Origin: Pempheris klunzingeri
Lineage: Eukaryota; Chordata; Actinopteri; Acropomatiformes; Pempheridae
Assembly: GCF_042242105.1 (NCBI RefSeq)
Contig: NC_092029.1
Coordinates: 3,095,885 to 3,159,884 of the forward strand
Length of the DNA: 64,000 nucleotides
Reading direction: 5' to 3'
Each line of letters starts with the position of its first letter. Position 1 is the stretch's first letter. Under the pieces are notes generated by a model, which saw nothing but the letters and a program-made list of their open reading frames with translations, was not told where the DNA came from and searched no databases. A program made the translations under genes and the position numbers. Shown here piece by piece: positions 6,112-51,065 of this stretch.

Positions 6112-7239
6112 GATCTGTAACTGACAAACAAACAGCAAATGAAGGAAGTAAAATGCATCTAAATGCTGCTTCATCGTGTTGCTATTAGAAACAGTTGGTT
6201 GCGCAATGACTCTCTGAGAGATTAAGCCTACAGCTTCCTCAAGACACATTTTCCATCCAGCAATTACCTACAGGCAAACGGGTATGAGCGGTGGGGTATA
6301 CCCTGGATCGGATCGACCACTCAGTCACAAAGCTGGCACATGCAATCATTCAAGCTCACAAGTGAGAGTCACCAATGAGCCGAACCTCAAGGAGCTCAGC
6401 ATCCAGAGAGATGGTTTTAACAGGGTCAGCGTGGTGGTTAGCCACAGACACCTACAGAGGTGATATTTGTTGCACTGGGTGGTGGCTGATGCTGTTTTGC
6501 AAATGATAACAAACAGGAAATTTCATCATCACCTACAGTTCTATACCAGAAGCGAAGAGACTGACACATCATCACCCGTTTCCAGAGAACAAGCACAAGC
6601 GGAGAATGGCTCTCCTCGAGTTAATACTCATTTCTGTGCATGTCTTTCTTCAGTTTGGAGGTAATTGCTCTAATTTTATTTTATTCAAGTGTTTTAGTCT
6701 TCACAAAATGTCAGCTTCCATTTAGCCAGTATAAAACCAGCACAGGTTCTATATTATGACCCTTACAATTTCTGTTGGTAATAAAAAAGGTGTTATGTTT
6801 TAGTGTGGCACAGATAACTGTAGCAGTGGGGGGTATTTTCTGCACTGCACTACAACTACAACTCTCTTAAGCTTTTGACTTTTCAGACAGTGCAGCTGGA
6901 AATATAGCCCCCCTATGTCCTCTTGTTTGCTAAAACTGTTTAAGGACATTTTTGTTCTGTGTTTTTAAAGATTTCAGTCTTCACTAGGAACCTCTGGGCA
7001 TGGGGCTGAGAGCCACAGACAGTTTAGGGAACACTGACAGATCACATTTTGAAAAACTAACAGGTCGCCGTTGTTTGACAAACAACAGGTTGGCTATAGG
7101 CAAAGCATGCTTTCTGTCAGTTGCCAATATCCTTGTACTGTTGTGACTTCTCTGATGATGTGCAGATGATGGGAGGAAAACGTCCGCTGGCAACGACTTG
7201 TTGCATAAAAATAGGTTTATTACAAAAAGATCAGTTGTC
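6112..7239 (+). repeat. Tandem segmental duplication, copy 1
   Basis: This 1128-nt unit is repeated directly at 7241-8394. The two differ by a 26-nt insertion in copy 2 (about 7375-7400) and only a handful of substitutions, so the event is recent. Each copy carries a complete leader exon and its upstream region. Confidence 0.95.
6606..6660 (+). CDS. Extra leader exon for receptor gene A (upstream copy)
   Basis: Encodes MALLELILISVHVFLQFG, a classical hydrophobic signal peptide, and ends in phase 1 at a GTAATT donor. It is the same in sequence and phase as the leader at 7761-7815 in the second copy of the duplication. It could be an alternative first exon spliced to the first V exon at 9143, or an orphan exon. 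No V exon lies between the two leaders, so it cannot form a separate gene of the usual layout. Confidence 0.7.
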
Positions 7240-7240
7240 T

Positions 7241-8394
7241 GATCTGTAACTGACAAACAAACAGCAAATGAAGGAAGTAAAATGCATCTAAATGCTGCTT
7301 CATTGTGTTGCTATTAGAAACAGTTGGTTGCGCAATGACTCTCTGAGAGATTAAGCCTACAGCTTCCTCAAGACTTCTGCAACCTAAAATTTCCGTGAAC
7401 ACATTTTCCATCCAGCAATTACCTACAGGCAAACGGGTATGAGCGGTGGGGTATACCCTGGATTGGATCGACCACTCAGTCACAAAGCTGGCACATGCAA
7501 TCATTCAAGCTCACAAGTGAGAGTCACCAATGAGCCGAACCTCAAGGAGCTCAGCATCCAGAGAGATGGTTTTAACAGGGTCAGCGTGGTGGTTAGCCAC
7601 AGACACCTACAGAGGTGATATTTGTTGCACTGGCTGGTGGCTGATGCTGTTTTGCAAATGATAACAAACAGGAAATTTCATCATCACCTACAGTTCTATA
7701 CCAGAAGCGAAGAGACTGACACATCATCACCCGTTTCCAGAGAACAAGCACAAGCGGAGAATGGCTCTCCTCGAGTTAATACTCATTTCTGTGCATGTCT
7801 TTCTTCAGTTTGGAGGTAATTGCTCTAATTTTATTTTATTCAAGTGTTTTAGTCTTCACAAAATGTCAGCTTCCATTTAGCCAGTATAAAACCAGCACAG
7901 GTTCTATATTATGACCCTTACAATTTCTGTTGGTAATAAAAAAGGTGTTATGTTTTAGTGTGGCACAGATAACTGTAGCAGTGGGGGGTATTTTCTGCAC
8001 TGCACTACAACTACAACTCTCTTAAGCGTTTGACTTTTCAGACAGTGCAGCTGGAAATATAGCCCCCCTATGTCCTCTTGTTTGCTAAAACTGTTTAAGG
8101 ACATTTTTGTTCTGTGTTTTTAAAGATTTCAGTCTTCACTAGGAACCTCTGGGCATGGGGCTGAGAGCCACAGACAGTTTAGGGAACACTGACAGATCAC
8201 ATTTTGAAAAACTAACAGGTCGCCGTTGTTTGACAAACAACAGGTTGGCTATAGGCAAAGCATGCTTTCTGTCAGTTGCCAATATCCTTGTACTGTTGTG
8301 ACTTCTCTGATGATGTGCAGATGATGGGAGGAAAACGTCCGCTGGCAACGACTTGTTGCATAAAAATAGGTTTATTACAAAAAGATCAGTTGTC
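7241..8394 (+). repeat. Tandem segmental duplication, copy 2
   Basis: Second copy of the leader-bearing unit (see 6112-7239), 1154 nt with a 26-nt insertion relative to copy 1. The right boundary abuts a GGCGCC-containing sequence at 8395 that is absent after copy 1. Confidence 0.95.
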
Positions 8395-11300
8395 CAACAG
8401 GCGCCACGGTTAACTGGAAAGACGTAACCCAATTATTCGTCTCATACAGACAGAGTACCTAACTTAACGTCTCTCCCCAGCTCCTCTGAATGTCATCTTT
8501 TATACCTTTAAAAAACGCTGGCCTCACCATATGGTTTCCCTCAGTAGCAAGGCCCAAAGAGGTCTTGCCCTAATATGGAGGGATGTATAGAGATTGTCAT
8601 CCTGCAGCACCCTGACCTTATCTGTTAACACATACCATGCATTCTACATACCATACATAACACATCAGATACCACAGTACGCATCTCTTTTCGATGTCCA
8701 TCATTTGATACAACATGCAAAATTAATTCTACAATGAAATTCACCCTCGGGGGAAGTGCAGAGTCTGACGGAGGTGTATTTGTGAACAAAATGGTTCCTG
8801 TCTCCTTGTATGCCTCCTCTCTGAGATCCACTTCTAAATGTACAGTCTGTGCACAGCAGAAGGGACGGAGCCATCTTGTGGCGTCATGGGGAAACTAACA
8901 TTCGCCCTACAGGTATCCTCGAGATATAAATAAAAAAAAAAAAAAAAATTCTCTCTTGTGTAAACACAACCACAGAAGTTCCTTCTTACTGGTTGCAAAC
9001 GCAGAAACCCAATTCAAGAACTGCACAATCTTTTGCCATCGTTTTTGAGAATTAACCCTCAAATAACCTGCTTAGTCCCCATGCAGATGATTTGATATGT
9101 GTTTTGTCTTTTCTTACATAAGGTCTCTTTTCTTTCCGACAGGCATCAGTGGACAAATCTATGTCTACAAAGCACCTGGACATGAAGCCGTTCTGCCCTG
9201 TGGCAGAGCAGCATCCTCTGACCCAACATGCTTCATCATCGAGTGGCTTTACAACAGAAACAGCACTGCTGTCACCATGGCTGTTGGTAATGAAGGAGAT
9301 GTCAGGAGGAGTCTGGGCACTGACTGCTCATTGGTCATTAAGAAGATCACTGCTGAGGATGCTGGACGCTACAACTGTCGGCCGTGGAGGACCATTGATC
9401 AGGATTCACTTGTATTTCTAAATGTTCTGACAAGTGAGTCTCATTTCCATTGACAGTCATCATCAAGAGGGAATCCTACTATTAGCTTTCATTAAACTAA
9501 AAGTCTTTCTTGTTACACACCCTTTTCCTGTCCACTATGATTCACCCAAGCATTATTAGGACAAACCTTTGATTCAAAGATGTTTCTAAGATTTCACATG
9601 GAACTAAATATCTCACCAGTGAGGGATGTTGTGCTTGGTTCTCTGTATATACACTCACCTTGTGTACAATTTAATCAAAACGTGATGAACAGTATCTTGT
9701 GTGGATGCAGTAACATGTTGAGGCTCAGTGTAGTAAAACTGAATTAATTTAACTTATTATTTTAACCCAGACCATAAAGAGAAAACTGATGATAATAAAA
9801 GAAAGCTGGAAATAGTCCACCATAGTGTTTTCTCTCTCTCCACGGTCACTCTGGGGCTCTGTAGTCATCACCTGTTTTCTCTCAGTCTCTCCATCTCCAG
9901 CAGACGCTGATCCAAAGACAGACGGTGAGCTCACGTTAAAGTGCTCTCTGCTGAGATTCAGTGACTTCAGTCCTTGTCCAAAGAAAAGCATGCGCTGGAT
10001 GGATGAGACAGGAGCTGTGCTGCTTGGTAAAGGAGTCGGGTACAAGTTCCTCGGACAGAAGAACTGCGTCTCTGCTCTGAGAGTAAAGCGTCAGGACGAC
10101 CACAACAGGAGATACACCTGCCAGTTTGTTAACAACAACAGAGTAGAGACCCAGGCCGACTACACACCTGTCTTCACAGGTAGGATGTGACATATGTTAT
10201 TGGGTGAGATGGCATGCAGCCCGCCAGATGAAAAAAGCTTTACCTCTTAACATATTGAAGATTAAATATTGTCACAATAGGAATATTGTGAATATCATGG
10301 TTATTTTGTCTGGCAGAGGATTAAATATTTCTCCATGTGACAGAGTGATGACAGCTTTTACATTATTACTTGATGCAGTTCCTCCATACAGTGCACAGAC
10401 TAATAAAGTGCACATAAAACTAAACAATGACATCAGATCTGTAGATTTCATTTGATCTGATCCCACTTTTATTTACTCTGACCGACTGTGTGGTGTTTTT
10501 TGTTGTAGTTTTAAGAGTGGAGACAAGCTGTGTTCCTAAAGGAGCCCACAATTCATTTATTAACTGAGACGTAAATGGAAATTTCTCTCTAATATAAACA
10601 CAACCACCAGATGGTGACACATTCCCTCTCTGGTTGTGTACGCAGAAACTCAATTCAGACCGGCAGGCATCAGTGGACAAATCTCTGTCTACAAAGCACC
10701 TGGACATGAAGCCGTTCTGCCCTGTGGCAGAGCAGCATCCTCTGACCCAACATGCTCCAACATTGAGTGGCTTTACAACAGAAACAGCACTGCTGTCACC
10801 ATGGCTGTTGGTAATGAAGGAGATGTCAGGAGGAGTCTGGGCACTAACTGCTCATTGGTCATTAAGAAGATCACTGCTGAGGATGCTGGACGCTACAACT
10901 GTCGGCTGAGGAGGGACATTGATCAGGATTCACTTGTATTTCTAAAAGTTCTGACAAGTGAGTCTCATTTCCATTGACAGTCATCGTCAAGAGGGAATCC
11001 TACTATTGGCTTATAGTTTTGGTACAAAAGTGTTTAAAGTCATTCCACCTGCACATCAGTTTCCTGTCTTCTATGCTTTTATGTGCTATTTACATACATG
11101 ATTGATGTAGGTATTATTAGGACACCCTTTTTGTTTCAAGGGAAGACAATATCCATAAGCACGCAGTTCACGTGAAACTGAATGGCTCACAGGTTTGGAC
11201 ATGAATTAATCAAAACGTTGGAACAAAATGTGTCTCTCAGTAGCATCTCAAGTGCTCAGTGTTGTGAAACATTCCCTTTTTGGCAGATTGAAAGAGCTTA

Positions 11301-13845
11301 TGTTTACACCCAGGTGTCATTTAGAAGGAATGTATTCTGTTATCCAACCTTTTATATTTGTATTTGACCCAGACCATGATTTTTTCTTAAACCTAATCAA
11401 GTAGTTTTGGTGCCTAAACCAAACTGAAAACTGATATCAAGTCTAACATTTGGTCTCACTAAGGGTTCAAACCCTTATCTCCAGGGTGAACGTCTTATGT
11501 CTGACCCATTATTAGGCTACCAAATTCTTCTTCTTTTCAGATATCTGGCTCTTTTCTCTCTCTCCACGGTCACTCTGGGGCTCTGTAGTCATCACCTGTT
11601 TTCTCTCAGTCTCTCCATCTAAAGCAGACGCTGATCCAAAGACAAACGGTGAGCTCACGTTAGAGTGCTCTCTGCTGAGATTCAATGGCTTCAGTCCTTG
11701 TCCAAAGAACAGCATGCGCTGGATGGATGAGACAGGAGATGTGCTGCTTGGTGAAGGAGTCGGGTACAAGTTCCTCGGACAGAAGAACTGCATCTCTGCT
11801 CTGAGAGTAAAGCGTCAGGACGACCACAACAGGAGATACACCTGCCAGTTTGTTAACAACAACAGAGTAGAGACCCAGGCCGACTACACACCTGTCTTCA
11901 CAGGTAGGATGTGACATGTACTCAGAGAGAAAAGTCAAATTCAGTTTTGATATGTATATATATATATATATATATGCATATAAAGACCACACCACACCAC
12001 AGAAGGCGACACGTTCCTTCTTACTGGTTGCAAACACAGAAACCCAATTCAAGAACTGCACAATCTTTTTCCATCGTTTTTGAGATTTAATCCTCAAATA
12101 ACCTGCTTAGTCCCCATGCAGATGATTTGATATGTGTTTTGTCTTTTCTTACATAAGATGTATTCTTTTCTTTCCGACAGGCATCAGTGGACAAATCTAT
12201 GTCTACAAAGCACCTGGACATGAAGCTGTTCTGCCCTGTGGCAGAGCAGCATCCTCTCACCCAACATGCTCCAACATTGAGTGGCTTCATGATAGAGTTA
12301 ACTCTGCTGTCACCATGACTGTTGGTAATAAAAGAGATGTCAGGAGGAGTCTGGTCACTGACTGCTCATTGGCCATTAAGAATATCACTGCTGAGGATGC
12401 TGGACGCTACATCTGTCGGCTGAAGAGGGACATTGATCAGGATGCATCTGTATATCTAAATGTTCTGACAAGTGAGTCTCATTTCCATTGACAGTCATCA
12501 TCAAGAGGGAATCCTACTATTAGCTTTCATTAAACTAAAAGTCTTTCTTGTTACACACCCTTTTCCTGTCCACTATGATTCACCCAAGCATTATTAGGAC
12601 AAACCTTTGATTCAAAGATGTTTCTAAGATTTCACATGGAACTAAATATCTCACCAGTGAGGGATGTTGTGCTTGGTTCTCTGTATATACACTCACCTTG
12701 TGTACAATTTAATCAAAACATGAGAATGAACAGTATCTTGTGTGGATGCAGTAACATGTTGAGGCTCAGTGTAGTAAAACTGAATTAAAACTATTTTGGT
12801 CGATGTTATTTGCAGCAGGATGCTAGTGGACAATACAAAGGATACATTTTGTAGTTAACTTATTATATTAACCCAAACCATAAAGAGAAAACTGATGATA
12901 ATAAAAGAAAGCTGGAAATAGTCCACCATAGTGTTTTCTCTCTCTCCACAGTCACTCTGGGGCTCTGTAGTCATCACCTGTTTTCTCTCAGTCTCTCCAT
13001 CTAAAGCAGACGCTGATCCAAAGACAGACGGTGAAGTCACGTTAGAGTGCTCTCTGCTGAGATTCAATGGCTTCAGTCCTTGTCCAAAGAACAGTGTGCA
13101 CTGGATGGATGAGACAGGAGCTGTGCTGCTTGGTGAAGGAGTCGGTTACGAGTTCCTCGGACAGAAGAACTGCGTCTCTGCTCTGAGAGTAAAGCGTGAG
13201 GACGACCACAACAGGAGATACACCTGCCAGTTTGTTAACAAGAGCAGAGTAGAGATCGAGGCCGACTACACACCTGTCTTCTTCACAGGTAGGATGTGAC
13301 ATGTACTCAGAGAGAAAAGTCAAATTCAGTTTTGATATGTATATATTATTGTCATGTCAGTTTTTTTTCTAAACTATGTTCAACAGATCCCACAGGATCG
13401 TCTCCTCTGAGCTACTTCATATTGACTCTGAGAATTTCAGGACTGATCCTAATGATTGTGGTCACTGTTGTTGTGGTTGTTGTTGTCATCAGACGCAGAG
13501 GTGAGGAAATTCAGACCATCATTTGGTGCAACTGATTAATAGAAAGTAACCTGTAGAGTTTCAATGCCACTTTTTTATTGCTCTTTTTCTATAATCAGGG
13601 GACGCAAAGGCTCTCGATGAGGACGACACTGTGAGTCAAACAAGATGATTAAAGACGGAGCTTTTTCTTTTGACTTTCATTTAAACGCTCAACAGTTTGT
13701 TTCACTGAAGCTTTCTCGTACTTCACAGGTAAACAATGACGCTGACTACGTCACGTATGAAAATATAGAAGCACGTCCAGCGACCAGCAGACTGCACTTA
13801 TCGACAGCCTCCACACCAACTTCAGTCCATCAGAGTGCCGACTAG
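7761..13845 (+). CDS. Receptor gene A: six-Ig-domain inhibitory-type receptor
   Basis: Exons: leader 7761-7815; V1 9143-9433; C1 9886-10179; V2 10667-10957 (or from 10646); C2 11610-11903; V3 12181-12471; C3 12992-13288; TM 13387-13500; tail 13599-13630 and 13729-13845. All Ig exons are phase 1-1, so any number of V-C pairs stays in frame; the whole model is 691 aa. V exons carry VLPC and DAGRY(N/I)C plus an extra cysteine pair (DPTC, TDCSL). C exons carry the KCSLL/ECSLL cysteine, RYTCQF and two further cysteines. The TM is a valine run followed by RRR. The tail has one clear ITIM-like site, VTYENI. The family is an orphan fish receptor type I know only as uncharacterised. The alternative reading is that each V-C pair is used in different transcripts; only one TM and tail follow them all. 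Confidence 0.75.
8365..8911 (-). mobile_element. Possible LTR-like remnant
   Basis: On the minus strand a TATAAAAG box (near 8500) is followed about 130 nt later by AATAAA (8371-8376), with a TGGCGCC string between them. This is the spacing of an LTR promoter and polyadenylation signal. No coding region or matching second LTR was found, so the call is tentative. Confidence 0.25.
10641..10666 (+). other. Shortened acceptor region of V2 with two in-frame AG sites
   Basis: Before V1 and V3 the exon is preceded by a long pyrimidine tract ending TTTCCGACAG. Before V2 about 117 nt of that region is missing: the distance from the shared CGCAGAAAC motif to the exon is 26 nt, versus 143 nt at V1. The homologous acceptor CCGGCAG remains but lacks a close pyrimidine tract. 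An AG at 10644-10645, preceded by CCCTCTCTGGTTGTGT, would add exactly 21 nt in frame (seven residues, ETQFRPA). Confidence 0.7.
11952..11976 (+). repeat. (TA)n microsatellite
   Basis: TA run in the intron between C2 and V3 of gene A. Confidence 0.85.
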
Positions 13846-14931
13846 CTGTTGTCACAGTCAGTTTACATGAGTGAAGGATTGACCTCATGGTCAGGATACA
13901 CTGCTTGCTCTTCTCACGCCTTATTTGATGTTAAGAGTTTCTGTCAAACTGTTTTTTTTTTCATGCCAACAACGAGCAGCTGTGTCGTTTCAGTCACAGT
14001 TTAATCAGAGCAAAGGAACAAATAACGGCTTGTGCTGTTAAAAAGTCAGATTCACAGTAGTACAGAGAAATATTTTTAGCCTCATTTAGCTGGTAGTTTT
14101 ATTTTTATGGCAGTTTTTTCCTGTTGTTTCACAACTTGAATGGGATGCACTCCTGCTGGGTGTGTGAATACAGAAGGTAACCATTTGCTCTGCTGTGGAT
14201 GGTGTAAATACGTCAGAGCTGTTTGGCAGCTTTTGCAAATGAATTGATAAGCTGAGCATTAAATGACGGCACTGCTGTCGTTCTCCATGTGGTTTCTGTT
14301 GAGTTTCAGTTTCATTGTTCTCACATAAATGTGTTGATGCTTCAAGGATTCAAGGAACTTTATTTGTCATACCAACACACACTTACACATGGGGAGGTAC
14401 GAAATTATGATCTCAGGTCCTGGTTTCAGCCACGATAAATATATAGAATAAAATATAGAGAATATAAAATAGAAGTACTGTATAAAGAGCAGTATGAGAT
14501 AAAATAAAAAGAAATAAATCGACCAGTGTGTCTGATTAACCATCAGTATAATGTTGAGTGGGTCTGTATATTATATTGTATTATCCTGCCAAGCCCTCAG
14601 CTGTTGTTAAAGGTATGACTGAACACTTTAACAATATTTAACATAATTATACCAACATCTCAAACTCCCCGGTGGATTCTCATGACTGCCCGTCAACTCA
14701 GGAGGGTTTAACTACTCCAGGCGAACATGATGCTGATCAGCTTCTGTAAAATGATCCTGTTAGCTCTCGTCCAACGTGGCTCTTTGAGTTCAAGTTAAAT
14801 GGTTGATTTAATTATTTGTTCGTCCCAAATGAGAAATCAGGTTTGGGATGGGAGCATTTAAACTCACAAGCATGTAAGAGATGGGGGTAGATACACCGTT
14901 TATAGACGACAATACAAGTGGGTAGGATGAT
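13846..14931 (+). other. Gene A 3'UTR and flank
   Basis: Non-coding. AT-rich sequence follows the gene A stop; several AATAAA-like strings (about 14448-14520) lie in a repeat and cannot be assigned safely as the gene's polyadenylation signal. Confidence 0.45.
14343..14530 (-). mobile_element. SINE/LINE tail fragment, minus orientation
   Basis: The sequence CAAGGAACTTTATTTGTCAT is the reverse complement of a tail (ATGACAAATAAAGTTCCTTG) that recurs in dispersed fish retroelements. The family is not resolved. Confidence 0.4.
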
Positions 14932-15385
14932 GGAGAGTCTGGGGGGTGAGGGATGAAGGGGGGAGAGTTGAGGGATGATGGAGGGTCTGGGGGGTGAGGG
15001 ATGAAGGAGGGAGAGTTGAGGGATGATGGAGGGTCTGGGGAGTGAGGGATGAAGGGGGGAGAGTTGAGGGATGATGGAGAGTCTGGGGGGTGAGGGATGA
15101 AGGGGGGAGAGTTGAGGGATGATGGAGGGAGAGTTGAGGGATGAAGGAGGGAGAGTTGAGGGATGAAGGAGGGAGAGTTGAGGGATGATGGAGGCTCTGG
15201 GGGTGAGGGATGAAGGGGGGAGAGTTGAGGGATGACGGGGGGGTTGAGGCATGATGGAGGGTCTGGGGGGTGAGGGATGAAGGGGGGAGAGTTGAGGGAT
15301 GATGGAGGGAGAGTTGAGGGATGATGGAGGGTCTGGGGGTGAGGGATGAAGGGGGGGGGGGAGTTGGGGGATGATGGGGGGAGGG
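14932..15385 (+). repeat. G-rich minisatellite
   Basis: Direct repeats built from GAGTTGAGGGATGATGGAGG and GTCTGGGGGGTGAGGGATGA units in varying order, with many GGG-GGGGGG runs on the plus strand. The minus strand reads as a low-complexity proline/serine/histidine frame, which I treat as an artefact. Many closely spaced G-runs make G-quadruplex formation plausible. Confidence 0.95.
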
Positions 15386-15541: not shown

Positions 15542-15697
15542 CTGTGAAAACTGAGTCAAAGGGGGGAGGAAGTGGATACGTTAAATGATAGTGGATATGT
15601 TAAATACTTTGATGAGCAGAAATGAGGTGGGTCTGAGGCGTGGTCATTATCCTCAAACCTTATTGGTTATAAAACTTCATTTTTCATGAAAAGCACT

Positions 15698-15776
15698 CAT
15701 GTGACTGACCGAGCACTGATCATGTGACTGACCGAGCACTGATCATGTGACTGACCGAGCACTGATCATGTGACTG
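15698..15776 (+). repeat. 23-bp tandem repeat, 3.4 copies
   Basis: Three perfect 23-nt units (15698, 15721, 15744) of CATGTGACTGACCGAGCACT followed by GAT, plus a partial fourth. Each unit contains CATGTGAC, an E-box-like core (CATGTG). Confidence 0.95.
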
Positions 15777-17250: not shown

Positions 17251-20200
17251 ATGGCTCTACTGGAATTAATCGTCATTATTGTGCTTCAGTTTGAAGGTAA
17301 AACTCTGTTTTTTTCAAGTTTTCCTGTTTAAATGTTGATAGAAAATGACAGAAATGTGACATTTTCATTATTATTAGATAAAAGCTAATGTGGAAAACTT
17401 CCACCAGGAACAGACTTCGTATATCCTGGTTTAAAGGCCACTTTGATAGCTGATTCTGGCCTGTAGAATTCAGCCAAGGACAGCAGCAATGAGTCCGTCA
17501 TTTTTAGGTAAACACTCCCATGTATACAGATATAAGGGCAGTAAAGAAACGATCTAATGCTGTTTCCTCTTTGTTCTCTTTGTGGCAGACTGATGAAGTG
17601 CACATAAAACTAAACATAGACATCAGAACTGTAGATTTTACTTGATCTGATCCCACTTTTATTAATTCTGATCATTTCTTATGTTTCTTAATCAAGATAT
17701 AAATAAAAAAATAAAAAAAATTCTCTCTTGTGTAAACACAACCACAGAAGTTCCTTCTTCCTGGTTGCAAACACAGAAACCCAATTCAAGAACTGCACAA
17801 TCTTTTGCCATCGTTTTTGAGATTTAATCCTCAAATAACCTGCTTAGTCCCCATGCAGATGATTTGATATGTGTTTTGTCTTTTCTTACATAAGATGTAT
17901 TCTTTTCTTTCCGACAGGCATCAGTGGACAAATCTATGTCTACAAAACACCTGGACATGAAGCTGTTCTGCCCTGTGGCAGAGCAGCATCCTATGACCCA
18001 ACATGCACCAACATTGGGTGGCTTCATGATAGAGTTAACTCTGCTGTCACCATGGCTGTTGGTAATGAAGGAGATGTCAGGAGGAGTCTGGTCACTGACT
18101 GCTCATTGTTCATTAAGAATATCACTGCTGAGGATGCTGGACGCTACATCTGTCGGCTGAAGAGGGACATTGATCAGAATGCATTTATATATCTAAATGT
18201 TCTGACAAGTGAGTCTCATTTCCATTGACAGTCATCGTCAAGAGGGAATCCTACTATTGGCATATAGTTTTCATACAAATGTGTTGCACTGTGTTAAACT
18301 CAAAGTCTTTCATGTTACACAGTTCAGTCCACCTTCATGTTTGAACTCAGTAAAGCAATGAACTTGTCAGGTGATGTAGCTGCAGATGTCAGACTAGTTT
18401 TACACAGAGATAACGCTAAACCACAGGGATGACCTGCAGTGTGTATCCTCTGCTGATCAACATGTCCATCCAGCTGGGCTCTAAACACACCTGCTACCAT
18501 TCTGGGTAATGCTCTGAATCAGGTGTACTGTTGTTTGACACGCTGTGGTTCTAATATAGACCAGCAGAGCCAGAACCACCATTGTTTATTTCAGAGTGCT
18601 GTTCATGCCAACACATGAGGGCGAAGAAGCATCAGGCTAAGGACAGACTGTGTTTACACTGTATTGGTCTGTTGTGCTTGGTTCTCTGTATATACACTCA
18701 CCTTGTGTACAATTTAATCAAAACGTGAGAATGAACAGTATCTTGTGTGGATGCAGTAACATGTTGAGGCTCAGTGTAGTAAAACTGAATTAAAACAGTT
18801 ATTTTGGTCGATGTTATTTGCAGCAGGATGCTAGTGGACAATACAAAGGATACATTTTGTATTTAACTTATTATATTAACCCAGACCATAAAGAGAAAAC
18901 TGATGATAATAAAAGAAAGCTGGAAATAGTCCACCATAGTGTTTTCTCTCTCTCCACGGTCACTCTGGGGCTCTGTAGTCATCACCTGTTTTCTCTCAGT
19001 CTCTCCATCTCCAGCAGACGCTGATCCAAAGACAGACAGTGAGCTCACGTTAGAGTGCTCTCTGCTGAGGTACTTCCATCCTTGTCCAAAGAACAGTGTG
19101 CGCTGGGTGAATGAGACAGGAGCTGAGCTGCTTGGTGAAGGAGTCGGGTACGAGTTCCTCGGACAGCAGAACTGCGTCTCTGCTCTGAGAGTAAAGCGTC
19201 AGGACGACCACAACAGGAGATACACCTGCCAGTTTGTTAACAAGAGCAGAGTAGAGATCCAGGCCGACTACACACCTGTCTTCTTCACAGGTAGGATGTG
19301 ACATGTACTCAGAGAGAAAAGTGAATCCTGTAACTCACCTATAATGAAGCAATAAGCGATTAGACTGAGGTCACATGTTGTACTGAAGTTAATTTCTTTG
19401 GCTAACTGCTATCTACAGACCCACAGACGACAGACCTCAAACCTCTTCAGACCTACATCATCGTGGGCACAGTGGTCGGGGGGGTGGCACTCCTGGTCGT
19501 CATTGCTGCTGTTCTCATCAAATACAGGAGGAGAGACAAAGTGACGGAGGGTCAGTAAAACAGAGGAAGTATGAACTGTCATGTGCTGTGGTGTGATATA
19601 AGGACAGCTATTCATTTTTAGATATCAGCGCATCAGTGGTATTTTTCTTTAAACATGGACTAAAAACACGAGTTGACTGACTCCACATCATTATATGAGC
19701 TCTGAATCACGTGTTAATTTAATATAAATAGGTAAATTAGTCCATTAAGTCCGTTATTGTCTACATCAGCCCAGAATTAAGTGAGCATTAAGCACACTGT
19801 GCTTTTTCTATGGTGTGATATACCTTGCAGTACTAATTTAAAGTGTGAATAATAACATTATTAATGTAAATTAACCACATAATGTACAGAATGATAATAC
19901 ATGAAACTAATGTTTGAAATTGTACCTTTTGTTCCAGGTGTTCAGAAATCAGGTCCCAAGTCCCAACATCAGGTGAGTTCAAATCAGCTTTTAATCGACG
20001 CCGTCACTGGAGACACACGAGCTGCTTCCCAAACATGTTCATATGCTGTGTGTTACAGACAGACAGACAGGCAGGCAGGCAGGCAGGTAGACAGGTAGAC
20101 AGACAGAGCCAAAAGAAGTGAACTCATCCCAACAGTCACACTGATGTTGGTGCATGTAAAGTAACACAAAATATACACCAAGAAGTTCAGGTGGTAAAAA

Positions 20201-21299
20201 TACATTCAATCCAGAAAAGTTTGTGTTAAACCAACTGACTCTCACCTGCGCTCAGTGCTGCCACTGCTGGCTGGAAACTGCAGTGCAACTAAACCAGTGT
20301 AGGAGGTTTATTTTAAATTAAACTGCAACTGGTTCAGAATGCTGCAGCCCGGATCATCACCAGGACCCCTTCTATCAGTCACATCACCCCCGTTCTCCAA
20401 CAGCTTCACTGGCTCCCAGTCACATACCGCATCTCATATAAAATCCTCCTCCTAACCTTCAAAGCCCTCCATAACCTCGCCCCTCCATACCTGACTGAAC
20501 TCCTCCACATAAACACACCCAGCCGGACTCTCAGATCATCATCCTCCATCAACCTCACGATCCCTCCTGCCCGTATGACCACCATGGGGTCCAGAGCCTT
20601 CAGCCGCTCTGCCCCCCGCCTCTGGAACTCCCTGTTTAAACAAGCCTACTCACTGTAACATCACTCTGCAGATCTCCCACCCCTTGGTTTTTTTAATTTT
20701 TTGACTTTTTATCTTGCTTTTTCACTGTTTGTTTTTAACTGTGTGTTGTACGGTGTCCTTGAGTGCCTTGAAAGGCGCCTATAAATAAAATGTATTATTA
20801 TTATTATTATTATTATTAAATCAGTTTGTACTTAAGGCTCAGAAACAGCTGCGACAGTGTGCGCTTCATGTCCGTAACCTGTGTGTTGTTTGCACTTGCA
20901 GGACGAGCCGGAGAACAATATGACCTATGTCTCTGTGAACCATGCTCATCAACAGGCCTCTCCTAACATGAGGGTGAGTGACTCCGTACACCTGTGTGTG
21001 CTCTGCTGTGGTTTTCTAATCCTCTGACGGCTTAATCTTGCAGTTCAGTGATGGAATGTATTTTATAATAGATGGGGTATTGTCATTTGGCCCTGAGAAC
21101 TATACACACACTACAAGGTTACCGTAAACGACAACAGTTCTTTGGTTGATGGAGTGAATCGTGTAAAACCTCTGTTTTTTTGTTGTGACAGGTGAAACAG
21201 GAAGAGCAGGTAACTTATTCTACAGTCAGGGCTCCAGGGAGGACAGAGGCAGACAATGATCCCAACAACCTCTACAGCAATGTCCAAATAAGAAAATAA
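17251..21299 (+). CDS. Receptor gene B: two-Ig-domain ITIM receptor
   Basis: Exons: leader 17251-17296 (MALLELIVIIVLQFE), V 17918-18208, C 19000-19290, TM 19419-19550, tail 19938-19972, 20902-20973 and 21192-21299; 324 aa in total. The V exon is a close relative of gene A V3 (DAGRYICRLKRDI), and the C exon keeps ECSLL, GQQNC and RYTCQF. The TM segment (YIIVGTVVGGVALLVVIAAV) lacks a charged residue and is followed by KYRRR. The tail has MTYVSV and VTYSTV, which fit the ITIM consensus, and LYSNV near the C-terminus. This predicts an inhibitory surface receptor recruiting SHP-type phosphatases (inference). The last exon (DPNNLYSNV) resembles the last exons of D1-D4 more than gene A's tail. One tail intron hosts a Rex1-like LINE tail. 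AATAAA at 21560 would end the transcript. Confidence 0.87.
20057..20107 (+). repeat. GACA/GGCA tetranucleotide microsatellite
   Basis: ACAGACAG then GGCAGGCAG then GTAGACAG units in a gene B tail intron. Confidence 0.88.
20323..20818 (+). mobile_element. 5'-truncated Rex1/L2-type LINE 3' end
   Basis: An uninterrupted 112-codon frame (20323-20658) starts LQLVQNAAARIITRT and contains HITPVLQQLHWLPV, LHNLAPPYLTELL and RAFSRSAPRLWNSL, the usual C-terminus of Rex1/L2 LINE reverse-transcriptase proteins. It is followed by a 3'UTR ending GGCGCCTATAAATAAAATG and an ATT microsatellite tail (to 20818), the tail form typical of this LINE group. The intact frame suggests a young insertion. It lies in sense orientation in an intron of gene B. 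Confidence 0.88.
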
Positions 21300-24500: not shown

Positions 24501-25207
24501 ATGTGGATCATGTTATCCCCCACAGTAACATGTGACTCCAGTGCACTGACAGGGAGGGCAATAACCCTCATATGTTTGATAAGTTGGATCAGCTGGTTGG
24601 GTAGAATTCCTGACAGACCAGGCAAACTCAAACATTTAGCAAGCTTGAACTGGGAGAACATGGCTGTAACCCTTGTTCTAAACCCTCCGTAATAACTTTA
24701 CTGCATGAAACTTTACTTTCATGCATAGCAGAGGTTGAGGATGTTCGAAGCATCCGCTGCACGGGCGGCTGCCAAGACCCTGATGGACACCAACACTGGA
24801 GGAAGGACAGCAGCTTCTGTGTTTACAGAGCCAACAATTTCAGTGTGGGAGTAGTTTGGGAAGTCTGACCCCAGACAGTAGAAACAACTCAGGTTCTTGC
24901 CCTCAGCTGTTTTCAGCAGGGAAGGAGAACTACTAACTGTGAATGGGGGTGCTTTCAGAAAGTGGGAGGACCACTTTAACATGTTCGGAAACAGGCAACG
25001 CAAGATCGAGTCCAGGAAGAGCCCACACAAAGTGACACAAGGTGACACTCGTGTGTATGTGAGAGATGTCTATGTGTTTTAATCACTGTGGAATGATACA
25101 TGCAGTAGATTTTTCGTATTAATATGGACTTGTGTGTCTAAAATAAAGCTACAATGGTATTAGCTCCTGTAGCTACAATAGCCTTCACTTTCAAGCCTTC
25201 CTCCTCC
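21566..25207. other. Intergenic region between gene B and the P450 pair
   Basis: No gene recognised on either strand. Contains a diverged copy of a GGTCCCA-type MITE (21895-22114). Frames at 24207-24692 (+) and 24719-25048 (-) are open but have no recognisable domain and no splice partners. Confidence 0.45.
21895..22114. mobile_element. Diverged MITE copy of the GGTCCCATAT family
   Basis: The right end GCATCATTTGGGACCTTTAA and the internal GAGGAGGTCACGTGATCA and CATAAATGGAGCC match the elements at 33022-33315 and 39948-40348. The left end is decayed. Confidence 0.5.
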
Positions 25208-28200
25208 TCACATAAGAGAGACAGCGCACAGTTTATGGGGTGAAGGGTTAAGGACGAAGCCCACGCGAGGATTCAGATCCAGCTCATCCTCTGAAACTCC
25301 AGGTGGAGGAGTGAAGCGGAAATGCTGCAGGATGGTGACAAAGAAGATGAAGAGCTCCATCCTGGCCAGACTTTCTCCGAGACAAATCCTGCGACCTGCG
25401 GGAGACAGCAAAAAGCTTCAGGTCATCTGCCGGGTGAGCGGACACGGACGAGAAGCGATGGCTGAGCTCACAAACCTGCAGAAAAGGGCATGAAGGCGTC
25501 TCTCTTGGCAAACTTTCCATCTTTGTCCAGGAAGTGAGCGGGATAAAAGGTGTGTGGGCGCTCCCACTCGCTCTCATCATACAGGACGGATGTCAAGAGA
25601 GGATACACTGTGGTCCCCTGTAGGTCATACAGCAATTAAAAAGCTTTTCTATATGCTAAGCAATGGCATTATTTTCAAACCACACAAGTATCTTAAGGAG
25701 CACAGAACTTATGTTTCTTTGCCACATTTTGATGGAAAACATGAAGAATGTTGTCAAGGACCAAATGCGACAGCGACCAGCGCCACAATCAATCAATCTT
25801 TATTTATATTTCACCAATTTATAACTATTTATATGAATTTATATTAAATTATCTCAAGACGCAGGTCTGGACCCACATGAGACAGCATCAGATATTATAT
25901 CAGGCAAAAACCTCGAACAGAACCAACAAACCTGAATACAATCCACGTTTGATCCAAGATGCTGCACACCTGCATCACCTGCATCACCTGCATCACCTGC
26001 ATGCTTCAGTGAATCTGACCCTGATTATTTGTGATTGAGTTGATTATAAGGACTCAACAAACTATTTCATTCACATTTTGATCCTTTTAAATAATTTTTT
26101 TTTCAAGTCCTACAGTCTAAGTGTTTGCGTCGGTCTGACCTTCTTGATGAAGTGACCCTGGAAAGTGACGTCTTGGCTGGTTTTGTGAGGAAGCGCCATG
26201 GGGACGATGTTGGCCAGTCTCTGAGTCTCGTGGATGACGGCGTCGGTGAAGGGCAGGTTCCTCCGGTCCTCCAGCTGCACCTGACGACTCCCTACCACCC
26301 TGCTCAGCTCCTCCTGGACCCGCTCTGGGAGATGCAACGAGAGTAAGGACAAAGTTACTTGATAAACTCTTATCTTTCCCCCTTTATGTCTATTACTTAA
26401 TGACGTTTATTCTCATATTGTAAACACATTGCTAGTGTGGTGTCCTTATGTTTCATGGCTGTGCTCTTACCCTGTATTTTCGGATACTTGGCCATATACA
26501 GAAGTCCCCATCTCAGCGTAGTCGCTGTCGTATCAGTGCCAGCAGCAAACAGATTCAGGACTGTCACCATGAGATTGTCATCGTGGTAGTGATTGTTAGT
26601 AGTCCCAGATTCCTACATGCACAGTTGTATGAGCACGGTTATTCAAATAAATCTGGTCCAAAACATCAACAAATCACATTACATGACATTTCCACTCTCC
26701 AGTTTTGGAGTTTGTGGTCTGAGGACAAGGACATGATCTTTCACCAGCTTCCAACAGCTTCGTCACATGGCCTTTTTTTCCCTTCCATGACCAAGCATTA
26801 GAAACACAACAACGATATGTTTATATAATATATAATGTGTTAAAAATATTCTCAAAGAGCCAGAAGACATGGGCACAGAAACTTTATAAAGTTATGAATC
26901 CAGTGCAATTTTCAGATTTGTTTGAAACAAATGTGTAGCCTTTAACTAAAAAGATATTGAATAATCTAATCTGAACCATTGTGCACCACACGGTCCAAGA
27001 GAGACTTAAACATTAAGAAATCAATTCAGATATAACACTTTGATAATATCTGCTTGATGAATGATACATTTTCTAACCTCCAGATTTTGCTTTTTGACCA
27101 GAAAGGCGTCCACAAAGCATCTGCACATCTGCGGATTGAGGGTCTCCTTCAGACGACGGAACATCACCAGGTTCTCTTTGACAATGAAGTCGGTAATCTT
27201 TCGGATTTCTGTCCTGTTATCAACCCATTTTCCGATCCACGGGAACAGGTTGTATATCTGTTTAGATATGTACAACAAGCTAGTTGGTTAGTTTTCATCA
27301 AATAGATGAAAAATGAGACGATTCCTCATCTACAATTAGAGCAATATAAAAATAGGTAATGCTACCTGTACTGATGGGGAGCCCGAAAGTTGAATGCGTT
27401 TATTTGTTTGATCTACCATGGATGTAAACTTTGGGTCATCGTAATCAAATCTGTTGCCATAGACCATGGAGCAGATGATGTTCGAGACTGCATAGTTCAT
27501 TGATTGGGTCGTATCAAAGGCTTCTCCTGCAACAAGGGAAAGCAAAGACAAATCAAAATCACAACAAATGTTTAAAAGGTCGTACGTCTGATGAAAAATT
27601 TAAAAAAGTACCTTTGAATTTCTTAAACACTTCAATGAGTTGGTCACATTCCTCAGTGATTTTGTCCTCACACACCCTCTTTCCCATCCCAAAGTCTCTG
27701 AGGTTCGTCAAGGCAAAGCGCCTCATCTCTTTCCAAGAGTCCCCATTGGACCACAAAACCCCTAGAATTAAATGTTTTTTCAGTTTAAATGGTGATTTTT
27801 ATTTATAAATGAATGATACGTGATTAGTTATATACATATTTTACATCATGTAGATTATATAAAGTATATTGCTTACAGATTAGAGGCATGATTTGGTGTG
27901 TGTGCTTACCGTGGCCGTGATTAGTTTCGTCTGCTATCAGCAACGGATCTCTGTCTCCAAACTCATCAGCATGGTTGACAAGTGCCTCCTTCACCGTCTT
28001 GTATCCAGCCAGAACCACCACTTTTGTGGATCCAAAATACACAGTGAACACTGATCCATGTTTCTTGGAAAGCTACAAACAGTAATATAATGTCATGATG
28101 TATTTTTGTATAAAAGAAAGACATGAGAGGACAGAACTACTTATCTTAAAGGAAAAAATACTTAATTCCAGCCACTTCCTTACCTCCACTAATGAGTTGT

Positions 28201-28390
28201 AGGGTTTCTTGAGGTCCAGTAGCAGCAGGTTCCCAAGCAGGGGAAGTGGTTTTGGTCCTGGGGGCTCCTTCCTGTCTGCGCTGGAGCTGAAGCTGGAGGA
28301 AGAGATGAGGTAGACGAGCAGCAGGACCACCAGAGCCCCCAGCAGGGACGCATAACTGCAGGACTGGAGAAGAGCATCAAATATCCCCAT
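25208..28390 (-). CDS. Cytochrome P450, CYP2K-like, gene 1 (downstream of pair)
   Basis: Nine exons, minus strand: 28390-28184, 28072-27910, 27761-27612, 27526-27366, 27257-27078, 26612-26471, 26324-26140, 25617-25476, 25395-25208; 505 aa, all junctions in phase. N-terminal membrane anchor at residues ~14-33, then the proline hinge KEPPGP. I-helix oxygen-activation motif AGTDTT at 311-316, K-helix ETQR at 367-370, PHTFYPAHF region near 417-425 and the heme loop [10 protein letters not shown] at 441-450 with Cys448 as thiolate ligand. Segment [14 protein letters not shown] and overall style match fish CYP2K: ER monooxygenases of xenobiotics and fatty acids. It has the nine-exon CYP2 gene structure. 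The usual glycine before FVDAF is cysteine here. Head-to-tail with the second copy at 31514-34583. Confidence 0.93.
25969..26004 (+). repeat. 9-bp tandem repeat (CTGCATCAC)n
   Basis: Four units of CTGCATCAC in the intron between exons 7 and 8 of the first P450 gene. Confidence 0.85.
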
Positions 28391-31300
28391 GACTTTAAGA
28401 TAAAATATGATTCCTTATGGAGCATTTGGCTCTGTGAGCATTTTAGTAATGATAGGTACCTTTTGTGGGTGTCAGTTGAAGGGGAGGGACAAAATGTGGA
28501 AAAGGTTGTTAGGTATTTTTAGGTCAGGGTTCTTTTTGGTTTACCTTTGCACAAGTGTTATCGTAAACGCCTGGTTAAAGTTCACTTATTTGTTACTTAT
28601 CATTTAATCGAGTCAGAGAGATTTAGTGCCTAAATCTCTAAAGGGGTTAATACATTTGGATAGGCATGACTCAACATTTACAAAGGGCGAATTGGCACCA
28701 AAACAAGCTACTAATGTCTAATCTTTTCCAAAATTCACCACGCCTTTGGTCTGACAACACCTTTAGAGTGCTTGTTTGCACTTTGTTGTGGTGCTTATGT
28801 GACTGTGGGTCTGTGCGTAGTGGCTGAAAAGAGGTGACTGTCTGCTCTGTGGCATCATCATCAATAATTAATTGTCTAAAGGTGCAATGTGTAAAAGTTG
28901 GCCACCTGCTCCAAAAACATGGGGGGGGGGTCAGCATTTCACCTCCTTCTCCCTAAATAAACAATTTATAGCCAGGAATGCACAACCATGGACTCATTTT
29001 ATTCAAGGTTCCTTTAATTTGTAATTAAAGTACACACATATACATACAGTATACAGGTAATTATATTTAGAAGAGGACAGGACTAAACATAAAATATAAT
29101 AATATATACATATATTATATATTATATATAGTTTGCATCTGGGGGAATGTAAACAGCAGAAAACAATATATCAGCACCACATTAAAAGTCGGCCTTCTGG
29201 GAAACACTTTCCATTAACTTTACTGCGTTAGAGCACCAATTCTCATTATTTGGTGAACTACAGGTCGCTGGTGAGCTAACGGCTCACATGAAAGCTGTGA
29301 CTTATAGCCTCAGGAAGCTCCAGGACTTATGTTGTTTCACTGTTGTTCGTTACAAGCCTCTAAAAACAGGCCTGTTTTTCATTTCCTTATCTAGACATAG
29401 TGATGCATGCTGCTGAAGGAGACTGTTTTTGTTATTAGCATTGTCACAAAGGTCAAAGGGTTGTCTTAACTTAACAAGAACAATTACTTTTTGTAGCTCC
29501 AACTATCAGTCCCTGGAACGTGCCACTGTTACTAAGAACAGGTCCAACAGACAATCAGACAGTTTTGCCAGATGAGCACACACCTAATGTTAGTAAAACC
29601 CTGAGTCACTATGGGAAGTAAAATACATCAAGGTTGGACCAAGAAGTCTAACATGACGTGGAGAGAAATCTGGTGGATTACAGACAACAGTTATAATTCA
29701 TATCATGAGGTAATCAACAACCCTGCAGACACAGAGGCCTTATCAATAACCTCATGCATTTACACAAACCTTTCTCTCTGTTGCTCTCTGTTTAGACACA
29801 ACTGACAAAAAAGAACACAATCATAACCAAGAATACACTTATTTTTAGGTACTGTAAAGTAAAATAAAATAGGTGAAGAGTGTGCCCGAGCAAGACGTCG
29901 CACCTGCAAAGACCAACGTGAGCCCAGAGAGCCTGCCTCCGACAACTGAGAGGAAATACAGAGCATCACAGCAGTGAGGCAAACCCCCACGTCTTCGTCC
30001 TGCCCCTCAGCACCGGGGAGCGGTTGCCACCAGCCCGTGGCTCCATCTGCTGGTTACACCTCTCAGCCCCGTCACAAAAAGAGGAAATAAACATGGAAGG
30101 GTGACTCCGTTATCTGCAAGCAGTTTGAGAGAGAGACACACGAACCAGTAATAGTTTACTTCACCATGCTGTGGCTATCGACTCTGACCATACGTAGAGT
30201 TTTTAGTGAAGCAGAGTATCTGGTCCAGGGGTTTAGGGGCCCCTCCCCTGTCCTGTCCTGGTTGGTCCAAATTGGAGCAGCACCAGCACCAGTCTGGCCA
30301 ACTGGATAGTTTGCACACTGTGTTTGTCTGTTGGTTCAGACTGTGATACTTGATCCAGTGGCTGAAGCACTTGTGCCTGTTTTCTCTGCTTCTTGTAGTT
30401 AAAAATCGTTAACAGTCCTTTGTTGTTGTTGTAATTTGTTGATGAGGCGCTCATTTGCTACCTGGGCACTGATGCAGGTACGGCTTAATGCTAGAAACAG
30501 TCTTCAGAAACCCTTTGTGTAGTTACACTGGGTGCAGGGGTGTTGCACTCACAGGCCCTGCTCCTTTGTAGTTATGGTATTCTGCAGCAAACTACTTTCT
30601 TTGTTAATAAATAACTTTTTATCACATCTGGTTTTGTGTTGCCTCTCTTTTACCGTAGAGCGCTGGGTTCAGTGTAACTGCTGATGTTGTTGTTGCTTCT
30701 CGCCAGATCAGACACCCAGAGGCAGAGGAAGGCTCAGGGCACAAGTTACATTTCCAAAGTCTTAGCCAGGCGATCATACAGAGCAGGAAATCCATTTGAA
30801 ACCAGCAAACTAATTCAGGCGTGGGAGAAACCACAGAGACAAACACTCAAAGTAACTCCTGAAAGCAGCGAAAACACTAAGATGAACAAAGATAATCTGG
30901 CAGGAGAACAGAGGAGGTATAGAGTGACATATAGGGAGGAATAGGGAGCTGGTGTGGATTTATTTCAAAATAAAACAGGTCAGGCAATGATTAACGGGAT
31001 GTTACACATCTGTTTCTTCTCACTAACTGTTAATGTTTTATTTCAATCAGAAAAGAGGGTTAAAGGAACATGGGTGTGTGATATGATACTGTGTCTGGGA
31101 AATATCAGTAAGAGAAGAGATGTGAGGTTTTTGTCTGCAAGCAGTAAGAGAAAGCGTCGACATACATATGAAATGTAAGATAAACAAGGAATAGCTGCTG
31201 AAGTAATGATGGTGTAACGATACAGAACATCTCCATAATCAACGGCAGGCATAAAAGACAGACAGTCATAAGTTCTGCATAGAAAGTCTGGTTTGATTTT

Positions 31301-31513
31301 TCATTTTTGGGTCAAATGTTCGACTTTCAGTCTGCTGCTGAGCCGAATTCTTGAATATTTACATGGCTCAATAAGAGTGATATGACCAATTTAATTGGTC
31401 TCATCTGTATTTACATGTTTATGATTAAGAAGTGATAACTGTAAAGTGAACATTTTGTTTGTTAAATCATTGATATTGAACATATTCAGTGCGACACGGT
31501 CACGTCCTCCTGC
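28391..31513. other. Intergenic spacer between the two P450 genes
   Basis: Holds the proximal promoter of the first P450 gene (just above 28390) and the 3' flank of the second. No other gene seen. A (TA)-rich stretch lies near 29098-29130. A moderately GC-rich patch at 29880-30130 and the sequence around 30490-30660 (GTTAATAAATAAC) have the feel of old repeats but could not be classed. Confidence 0.4.
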
Positions 31514-34500: not shown

Positions 34501-34583
34501 AAGTAGAAGAGCAGCAGGACCACCAGAGTCCCCAGCAGGGAGGCAGGACTGCAGGACTGGAGAAGAAGCTCTAATATACCCAT
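31514..34583 (-). CDS. Cytochrome P450, CYP2K-like, gene 2 (upstream of pair)
   Basis: Nine exons, minus strand: 34583-34380, 34275-34113, 34022-33873, 33779-33619, 33521-33342, 32793-32652, 32562-32378, 31925-31784, 31701-31514; 504 aa, every junction in phase. Same landmarks as its neighbour: N-terminal anchor, KEPPGP hinge, AGTDTT (310-315), ETQR (366-369), heme loop [10 protein letters not shown] with Cys447. [14 protein letters not shown] has the usual glycine. The C-terminus differs (LCAVSCV versus LCAVSLM). Exon lengths equal those of the first gene except exon 1 (204 versus 207). A tandem duplicate with clear divergence in exons 2, 4 and 5 but a 147-nt identical tract in exon 7. A LINE tail and a MITE sit in intron 5. 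Confidence 0.93.
32843..33020 (+). mobile_element. LINE 3'-end fragment in a P450 intron
   Basis: A 38-codon frame (32843-32956) reads [17 protein letters not shown] and continues to [11 protein letters not shown], the C-terminal WxxLPxxLR...F(K/R)xxLKT block of L2/Rex1-type LINE proteins. It lies antisense to the P450 gene. Confidence 0.7.
33022..33315. mobile_element. MITE copy of the GGTCCCATAT family
   Basis: Shares GGAGGTCACATGATCA, GACATCATAAATGGAGCC and the end AAAAAGTGCATTTCACATAA with the elements at 21895 and 39948. The right terminal repeat has decayed to AATGGACTTTAA. Confidence 0.6.
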
Positions 34584-41787: not shown

Positions 41788-43228
41788 GAACCATTTTTAC
41801 CAGCTTTGGCATTTTGGATTGAATAATGAAATATTCTCCTGACAGACCAACCAGGAAAATCCTCAAAGATGAGCAATCTAAAAGCCAGTAAAAGTATTTA
41901 TTACTCTTGATATCGTCCATGACTGAGCACCCAAAGATGACCTGGTTAGTTTTTATTTATCACATTTTCCTCAAGAATGTAAAACAACATCCAAAGACTG
42001 AAATCGTTGGGCACCTTAGAAGAAAACTAGGATGTTATTTCCAGGACGTACTGTTGTAAAAAGCTTTTTGTCCAGAAGGTGGGGTAGTGGCTTAACTAGT
42101 ATGTAGACAGTAAAAGTTATAACCAAACCCTTGTACGTCTGGTTGCTGTGCTTAACTAAAACACAAATAAGAATAATACATGACATGTGCTGCTTGCTGT
42201 CACTACGCTGTGCTCGGGGATGAATGTACTACTGTTGGGATTTGTTTTTAATGCTTTTGTATTTGAATTAGTTTTCTGTGTTAAACACTGGAAACACTAT
42301 TAGAAACGCTCACCAACAACAACAACAACATCAGTTCATACAAACAGCATTCGTGCTGTATTTGCTGTATTTGAGACATTCTTTATTTTAGTTATATTTT
42401 AAGGCTCCCAAAGCTTCCTCGTCACATGTGGTTTCCCCTCTGTGTCACCATGTTACACACCGTGGGTATCGGACATCAAACTCTGGGGTCTGACTCACTT
42501 TGTGTGTTGTCAAACATCACCAAGGCTTTTTAAAGTTTATTTAGCTGTATTTTAAGGCTATAGTTGCACAATTACTTCTCAATTCAGCCTCCTCAGTATT
42601 CCTCATCACCTTTTCAGGACGCCGTAAAACATCCACAGCCACAAATTTAAGTACTGAATGACTGAAAACTGTTAAATCTATTCTTCTTTGTCTGTTGTCT
42701 TTACTGCTAAAAGATTGTATCAGCTCATAGCGTACAGTTTGTCTCATGTTTCACACAGTAAGTCAGATAGCCTGTTTATTGAAATGTGAAAAAAATAAAA
42801 TAAATAAGAGTTTGTTACTCAGCTCAACCTGGTGTCCTGAAATTTCTGTTGTAGCTTATTGAGAAATAGTTCTTAAAAAGCAAATATTGTCTCCAATAGG
42901 AACCCATTTCAAAAGGATTACATGAATAGAAGTTATGATTATAGACAGGAAGTGTGTTGTGGTTTTTTGGTTGGTGAAAAATGTTCAACAACCTGTGATT
43001 CTGATTCTGTGAAGACTTCTTCTCTTCATCTAAACACCTAAAGTTTCTCCTCCGTCCCCCGAGAGAGAGAGAGATTCAACATGTGAAAGAAAGAAGGGCG
43101 AACAAAGATTCAAGTCACTATAAGGAAGTGACACTTTACTGATAACAGGAAGTAATCCTGCGTCTCTCTTAAAGAAGGCGAGTTCAGAAAATTTGACAGT
43201 TTAGGGAAGAGAGAGAGAGAGAAGCAAG
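41788..43228 (+). other. D1 3'UTR and D2 promoter region
   Basis: No further gene. AATAAA strings at about 42794-42803 could end the D1 transcript. Near D2, GATAACAGGAAGT (43141-43153) combines a GATA core with an ETS core, and GAGAGA repeats flank it. Confidence 0.45.
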
Positions 43229-47757: not shown

Positions 47758-47763
47758 AATAAA
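47758..47763 (+). terminator. Polyadenylation signal of D2
   Basis: AATAAA about 590 nt after the D2 stop; a second AATAAA lies about 14 nt further on. Confidence 0.55.
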
Positions 47764-51059: not shown

Positions 51060-51065
51060 AATAAA
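51060..51065 (+). terminator. Polyadenylation signal of D3
   Basis: AATAAA (AAATAAAAGC context) about 430 nt after the D3 stop and 330 nt before the D4 leader. Confidence 0.6.

Follow-up and report, generated by a model that had tools for sequence, protein, structure and literature searches.

A teleost receptor gene with three V-C pairs at a candidate paired-receptor locus of Pempheris klunzingeri

How does an immune receptor come to carry several binding heads, and were they all gained at once? This question is raised by a 64,000-nt stretch of the Pempheris klunzingeri genome (NCBI RefSeq assembly GCF_042242105.1, contig NC_092029.1, positions 3,095,885 to 3,159,884 of the forward strand), hereafter the window, in which positions are counted from the first letter. 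Two neighbouring genes on its plus strand, referred to as A and B, encode putative immunoglobulin (Ig) receptors; gene B has one pair of V and C exons and gene A has three. A preliminary description of the locus held that gene A is a fresh multiplication of the ancestral single-pair layout seen in gene B. As read from the sequence, pairs were instead added to gene A at least twice, at different times, through the introns of neighbouring single-pair genes. We consider the anatomy of gene A and this stepwise history, taken together, highly probable.

Anatomy of gene A

Gene A had been described as three V exons of 291 nt alternating with C exons of 294, 294, and 297 nt, all six in phase 1-1 and all 5' of a single transmembrane (TM) exon and a single tail. 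This layout proved correct to the base, with AG/GT borders. The pairs consist of V1 (9143..9433) and C1 (9886..10179), V2 (nominally 10667-10957) and C2 (11610..11903), and V3 (12181..12471) and C3 (12992..13288). They are followed by the TM exon (13387..13500), with an arginine within LTLRISGLILM, and by two tail exons (13599-13630 and 13729-13845) that contain VTYENI. The ~1.52-kb period ascribed to the array holds for the V starts, which are 1,524 and 1,514 nt apart, but not for the C starts (1,724 and 1,382 nt). When the exons are joined, the frame is open over 692 amino acids, and it is kept whichever of the six Ig exons are retained or skipped (64 combinations in all).

The preliminary description also treated the array as one gene rather than three, and this view was upheld. 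In tblastn searches, the leader, TM, and tail peptides of genes A and B had zero matches in any of the five introns that separate the Ig exons from V1 to C3. Three separate genes were therefore ruled out, as no leader, TM, or tail homologue lies between the cassettes. The C1-V2 intron includes a strongly hydrophobic stretch (10457-10513), which has no homology to either TM exon and was set aside. Between positions 5500 and 20500, no Rfam match reached its gathering score, and an RNA element was dismissed on this basis. Gene A is best read as a single gene for a type-I membrane receptor, in which a leader and three V-C pairs precede a lone TM segment and a lone short tail; the complete explanation to which this reading belongs is, in our estimate, somewhat better than evenly supported.

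The leader exon (MALLELILISVHVFLQFG followed by G, exit phase 1) is present twice, at 6606..6660 and, in identical form, at 7761..7815. Each copy lies in one half of a tandem duplication of the 5' region (6112..8394; copies 6112-7239 and 7241-8394), both copies terminating in a dispersed repeat. Over 1,154 columns, the 1.15-kb copies differ by 4 substitutions and one 26-bp gap (97.4% identity including the gap). This close similarity would fit an assembly artefact in which haplotypes or paralogous reads were stacked into a false tandem array, and the 5' duplication alone could be one. For the array itself, such an origin is very improbable. The cassette exons are 3-10% different and have their own introns, including a unique C1-V2 intron of 487 nt, and the junctions mix intron types in a manner that falsely stacked whole haplotypes could not produce.

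The V2 exon differs from the others in its splice site. Compared with V1, V3, and the V exon of gene B, a net ~117 bp is absent directly 5' of V2, and the pyrimidine tract has been lost with it. Among the AG sites of the 6-20 kb interval, the nominal V2 acceptor (10667) reaches percentile 75 by score, whereas the acceptors of the other V and C exons lie at 98.4-99.8; all such ranks are rough. V2 might accordingly be unspliced or mostly skipped, in which case gene A would yield V1-C1-C2-V3-C3, with five Ig domains, or another shorter product; the frame is kept without V2. However, there is an alternative acceptor at 10646, whose score places it at the 95th percentile, higher than the TM acceptors of gene A (91) and gene B (89). 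It would restore V2 in frame, lengthened by 21 nt that encode the seven residues ETQFRPA. V2 is also free of stop codons and retains its four cysteines, and we regard skipping as unlikely. Because a damaged acceptor is paired with a better-scoring in-frame acceptor 21 nt upstream, V2 is probably an exon of 312 nt (10646..10957) that survives through the substitute site.

Taken alone, the intact frames are a weak argument that the gene functions, as the probability of finding zero nonsense changes among 71 neutral changes is P = 0.08.

Stepwise joining of the pairs

The introns between the cassettes carry the record of how the pairs were joined. Judged by its sequence, the C2-V3 intron (11904..12180) arose recently as a chimera, part C-TM intron and part leader intron. 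Its 5' part (11904-11961) is identical to the C3-TM intron at 58 of 58 nt, and its 3' part (12013-12180, 168 nt) is 98.8% identical to the leader intron of gene B and 94.6% identical to that of gene A itself, with a (TA)n run at the join. The C1-V2 intron (10180..10666), which holds the deletion 5' of V2, has the same composition and reads as an older chimera, with 80% and 73% identity of its 3' part to the gene B leader intron. Since a C-TM intron has been fused with a leader intron in both cases, the pairs appear to have been added by intron recombination between neighbouring single-pair genes. The TM, tail, and leader exons between the joined pairs would have been lost or never copied.

The exons and introns of the cassettes give conflicting ages. 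V1 differs from V2 at 10 of 291 sites and C1 from C2 at 10 of 294 (96.6% identity in each case), and the similarity of cassettes 1 and 2 extends into the flanks, with 2 of 53 differences just 3' of V and 0 of 58 just 5' of C. In the middle of the V-C intron, by contrast, 107 of 252 aligned sites differ and there are 164 gap columns. Cassettes 1 and 3 show the opposite pattern: their V exons differ at 30 of 291 sites and their V-C introns at only 5 of 452, and the V1-V3 silent divergence (dS) of 0.077 exceeds the divergence of this intron. Both patterns would result from exon-sized conversion between cassettes 1 and 2. As far as these alignments show, the exons have been homogenised within gene A independently of the introns. 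A point against this interpretation is that the V2-C2 intron consists partly of dispersed repeats, with matches to 11301-11508, so that part of the non-alignment is insertion. The repeats nevertheless leave the diverged C1-V2 intron unexplained.

These results bear directly on the proposal that a B-like single V-C gene was freshly multiplied to six domains, giving either a longer ectodomain or a choice of heads by alternative splicing. The single V-C layout is indeed the family rule, the C2-V3 junction and the V-C intron shared by cassettes 1 and 3 are recent, and every exon combination stays in frame. However, the C1-V2 and V2-C2 introns are far more diverged than the exons they adjoin, and the TM and tail classes of genes A and B differ. 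We rate the proposal as quite unlikely. Multiplication as one event could not be sustained, as the junctions differ in age and homogenisation is confined to exons, and a single recent triplication is ruled out because the ages of introns and exons are mixed.

Gene B comprises a leader exon (17251..17296), a V exon (17918..18208), a C exon (19000..19290), a TM exon (19419..19550) whose hydrophobic stretch has no charged residue, and a probable last tail exon (21192..21299) reading VTYSTV ... LYSNV, all on the plus strand. A search of the 646-Mb genome turned up four close copies each of the V and the C exon, three of each in gene A and one in gene B. Protein identity of the other copies in A and B to V1 and C1 is 77-92% for V and 82-91% for C, and the next matches in the genome reach 43% identity for V and 30-36% for C, or are less convincing. 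More distant V relatives are found in four genes between 37.5 and 54 kb of the window and in a far cluster ~220-290 kb past the window end.

A single pair is ordinary among these relatives. Outside genes A and B, the window holds four receptor genes, and all four possess a single V exon, a single C exon, and tail exons of their own. Over the 100 kb examined of the far cluster, V matches numbered 12 and C matches 10, besides a C fragment of 26 residues; two of the V matches were accompanied by no C match at the threshold applied. The V matches are at least 3.4 kb apart, compared with 1.5 kb in gene A, a spacing of matches rather than of gene models. The description of gene B as the ancestral single V-C layout is thus sound for the layout but not for the gene: because gene B has a TM and tail of another class, it is not simply the ancestor of gene A.

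Possible diversification of the heads, and known receptor families

To count changes, we applied parsimony to the V and C exons of genes A and B on a tree that joins cassette 1 with cassette 2 and cassette 3 with gene B. Replacement and silent changes numbered 35 and 5 in V and 27 and 4 in C. The total of 62 and 9 represents an excess of replacement at kappa 2 (P = 0.0036), as well as at kappa 1 (P = 0.015) and kappa 4 (P = 0.0007). V3 and the gene B V exon differ at 13 of 291 nt, and all 13 differences are replacements (dS of 0); C3 and the gene B C exon differ at 17 of 291. Across cassette 3 and gene B, 30 of 582 exon sites differ compared with 9 of 583 flanking noncoding sites (P = 5.5e-4). 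Variable V residues are concentrated in the loops (18 of 40 versus 11 of 56 elsewhere, P = 0.007, with borders drawn by us) and on the C-C'-F-G face (19 of 41 versus 10 of 55 elsewhere, P = 0.003, with the face drawn after the model). The last two tests view the same sites twice, within borders drawn after the fact.

Several points count against selection for diversity. At kappa 2, the excess yields P = 0.022 for V alone and P = 0.064 for C alone. A smaller first comparison of cassette 3 with gene B, between the V exon and 190 nt of intron, gave P = 0.21. The tests presume one tree though the exons have been converted, and the exon divergence between cassettes 1 and 3 is partly due to conversion. 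We also observed that N-glycosylation sequons differ among the copies: V1 has one, V2 two, and V3 and the gene B V domain one elsewhere, while C3 has one, the gene B C domain two, and C1 and C2 none.

The domains share the residues and predicted folds of Ig domains. All 18 aligned V domains have C19, C29, W34, C61, and C78 in common, all 19 aligned C domains have C19, W37, C60, and C78, and both V and C domains contain four cysteines in every copy of genes A and B. The V3 model, built from 18 sequences, has a V-set fold (mean predicted local distance difference test score [pLDDT] of 80.2, predicted template modelling score [pTM] of 0.74) and lies near many PDB V-set chains. The C3 model, from 19 sequences, is weaker (pLDDT of 73.5, pTM of 0.65) and matches nectin-like, PD-L1, and MHC class I chains, with only four matches at E ≤ 0.001. 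Pfam V-set and Ig_3 match V1, yet below their cut-offs, and C1-set matches 12 of the 19 C-domain members at E ≤ 0.1; the C1 domain alone had no Pfam match at E ≤ 1. On the strength of these residues and models, genes A and B appear to encode Ig superfamily V-C receptors of the clustered teleost type, with predicted V-set and Ig C-type folds.

The four-domain V-C2-V-C2 ectodomain of CD4/LAG-3 is generally attributed to a V-C2 set of exons that was duplicated in tandem (PMC10768021), as in gene A. An intron within the D1 coding sequence is a feature of that family (PMC10768021), whereas gene A has undivided, open V exons, three pairs, and a different tail. Furthermore, CD4/LAG-3 has WxC in strand F, and all three C domains of gene A have YTC (YxC). 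With no WxC and no intron inside V, membership of gene A in CD4/LAG-3 was ruled out. The best match to the gene A C domain outside the locus is a V-C-V gene on another contig (C8:13774538-13775819, minus strand), which has WKC in strand F and is probably a CD4/LAG-3 gene.

Clustered teleost Ig receptors with two domains, in inhibitory and activating forms, are known as DICPs in zebrafish. The NITRs are likewise clustered teleost receptors, with a V and a second Ig domain, TM segments with or without arginine, and tails bearing immunoreceptor tyrosine-based inhibitory motifs (ITIMs) (PMC2442602). Genes A and B resemble them in this layout, in TM segments with or without arginine, and in ITIM-like motifs of the tails. 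The V model of gene A also aligns with NITR10 and NITR11 at TM-scores of 0.71-0.72 by query length, as it does with many V-set domains. Membership in the NITRs is defined by a J or J-like FGXGTXLXV motif ending V and/or I and by six conserved cysteines in I (PMC2442602). In contrast, the V domains of gene A end in ..VFLNVLT or VYLNVLT and its C domains in ..YTPVFT, with no J-like motif; C1, C2, C3, and the gene B C domain have four cysteines rather than six; and gene A has six Ig domains rather than one or two. We ruled out NITR membership on the grounds of the J-like motif and the six-cysteine I domain.

Two further families share individual processes with gene A. In Xenopus CEACAMs, conversion is confined to the binding V exon while introns have diverged, in receptors of opposite sign (PMC5112662), and paired CEACAM receptors of Xenopus and mammals combine exon-limited V conversion with few silent changes and opposite tails (PMC5112662, PMC8860441). 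Gene A has the same exon-limited conversion beside diverged introns, but its homogenisation also acts among the cassettes of one gene and spans V and C exons. Rodent PSG genes have, like gene A, grown by Ig exon duplication, reaching three to eight N domains (PMC10440875). PSGs differ in being secreted, in duplicating only N-domain exons, and in being generally under negative selection (PMC10440875). A literature search judged by titles and abstract openings found no teleost receptor with three V-C pairs, which does not prove absence. Tandem V-C duplication and exon-limited conversion are thus known from other families, and what is new is their combination in one teleost gene.

Signalling parts and the candidate pair

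Despite their near-identical heads, genes A and B differ in their signalling parts. The last exon of gene A matches seven exons of the far cluster (57% identity, E of 3.6e-5 each). The seven related tails read VNYENM and end at a stop that is absent in gene A, whose tail reads on. A genome-wide search with the gene A tail returned the same seven places, at E values of only 0.18-0.20 each. Adjoining these tails are seven TM exons that read LV(I/T)RVAEILLITVITVLL, with the arginine in all seven at the same place as in gene A. Within the window, at E of 0.05, the gene A TM exon is the sole match to this class (39% identity, E of 1.4e-4), of which seven copies were found, 270-330 kb away. The TM exon of gene B and its last exon (VTYSTV, LYSNV) instead resemble the TM exons and tails of genes D and F, which belong to the further receptor genes of the window. 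By sequence similarity, gene A would have a TM and tail of the short-tail arginine class and gene B of the long ITIM class. The two genes therefore share a head and differ in the class of signalling part.

Except where the NITR paper is cited, the ITIM, YxxM, and TM-arginine readings of motifs are ones that we assume. Gene B, with ITIM-like motifs, would be inhibitory, and gene A, with a TM arginine and VTYENI, would probably signal through a partner of the arginine or in a mixed manner. Activating receptors among the NITRs are distinguished by a charged residue in the TM segment (PMC2442602). Paired signalling of A and B falls slightly short of an even chance in our estimate.

Two features of gene A weigh against such pairing, and gene A may be inhibitory too. 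Its arginine is placed peripherally, on the outer border of the hydrophobic stretch, and the best 19-mer excludes it. In addition, VTYENI fits what we take to be the ITIM consensus. Both features would suit a receptor that is simply inhibitory, as B would be, but has more domains and is not the counterpart of B in a pair. Such a receptor would nonetheless have the TM and tail of the short arginine class, in which the other tails, VNYENM, misfit the ITIM pattern. We find this alternative doubtful.

The best reading is of a candidate paired-receptor locus in which A is the member with three diversifying heads. Through exon exchange, A and B would keep a matching yet diversifying V face, and A would display this face in three variants, carried by a single, longer stalk that comprises up to six Ig domains. 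A more specific and rather unlikely version makes A the activating-type twin of inhibitory B, with three diverging B-like heads on one chain. In that joint version, A might serve as a germ-line "multi-head decoy" covering variants of a ligand that exploits or escapes B, its heads refreshed by exon-sized conversion and their number changeable by intron recombination.

Further features surround the two genes. A minisatellite (14925-15383, periods of 22, 48, and 114 bp) and a 23-bp repeat (15697-15776) lie between A and B. In the tail region of gene B, an open frame (20317-20655), which we take to resemble the end of a long interspersed nuclear element reverse transcriptase, had no Pfam match at E of 0.01, and a search of gene B against NCBIfam returned a single bacterial model (E of 0.058), regarded as chance. 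The other receptor genes in the window, C-F (37500-54200), combine a single V and a single C with long tails, in which several tyrosines are ITIM-like. A tandem cytochrome P450 pair lies inside the receptor cluster on the minus strand (25000-28500 and 31500-34600); Pfam p450 matches two exons of the first gene, and the second was recognised as a DNA repeat of the first. The first exon of a vasohibin gene (56485-56874; Pfam Vasohibin, E of 1.7e-16) adjoins the cluster.

Collectively, one locus with readable breakpoints shows how an immune receptor acquires binding heads. In the sequence, intron-to-intron recombination appears to add pairs, exon-sized conversion to keep them alike, and replacement changes then to separate them. 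If the pair reading is true, this would be a teleost receptor that bears several versions of the head of its inhibitory partner. If it is false, gene A would still offer a clean case of stepwise exon-cassette growth, one that corrects the simple picture of a fresh duplication.

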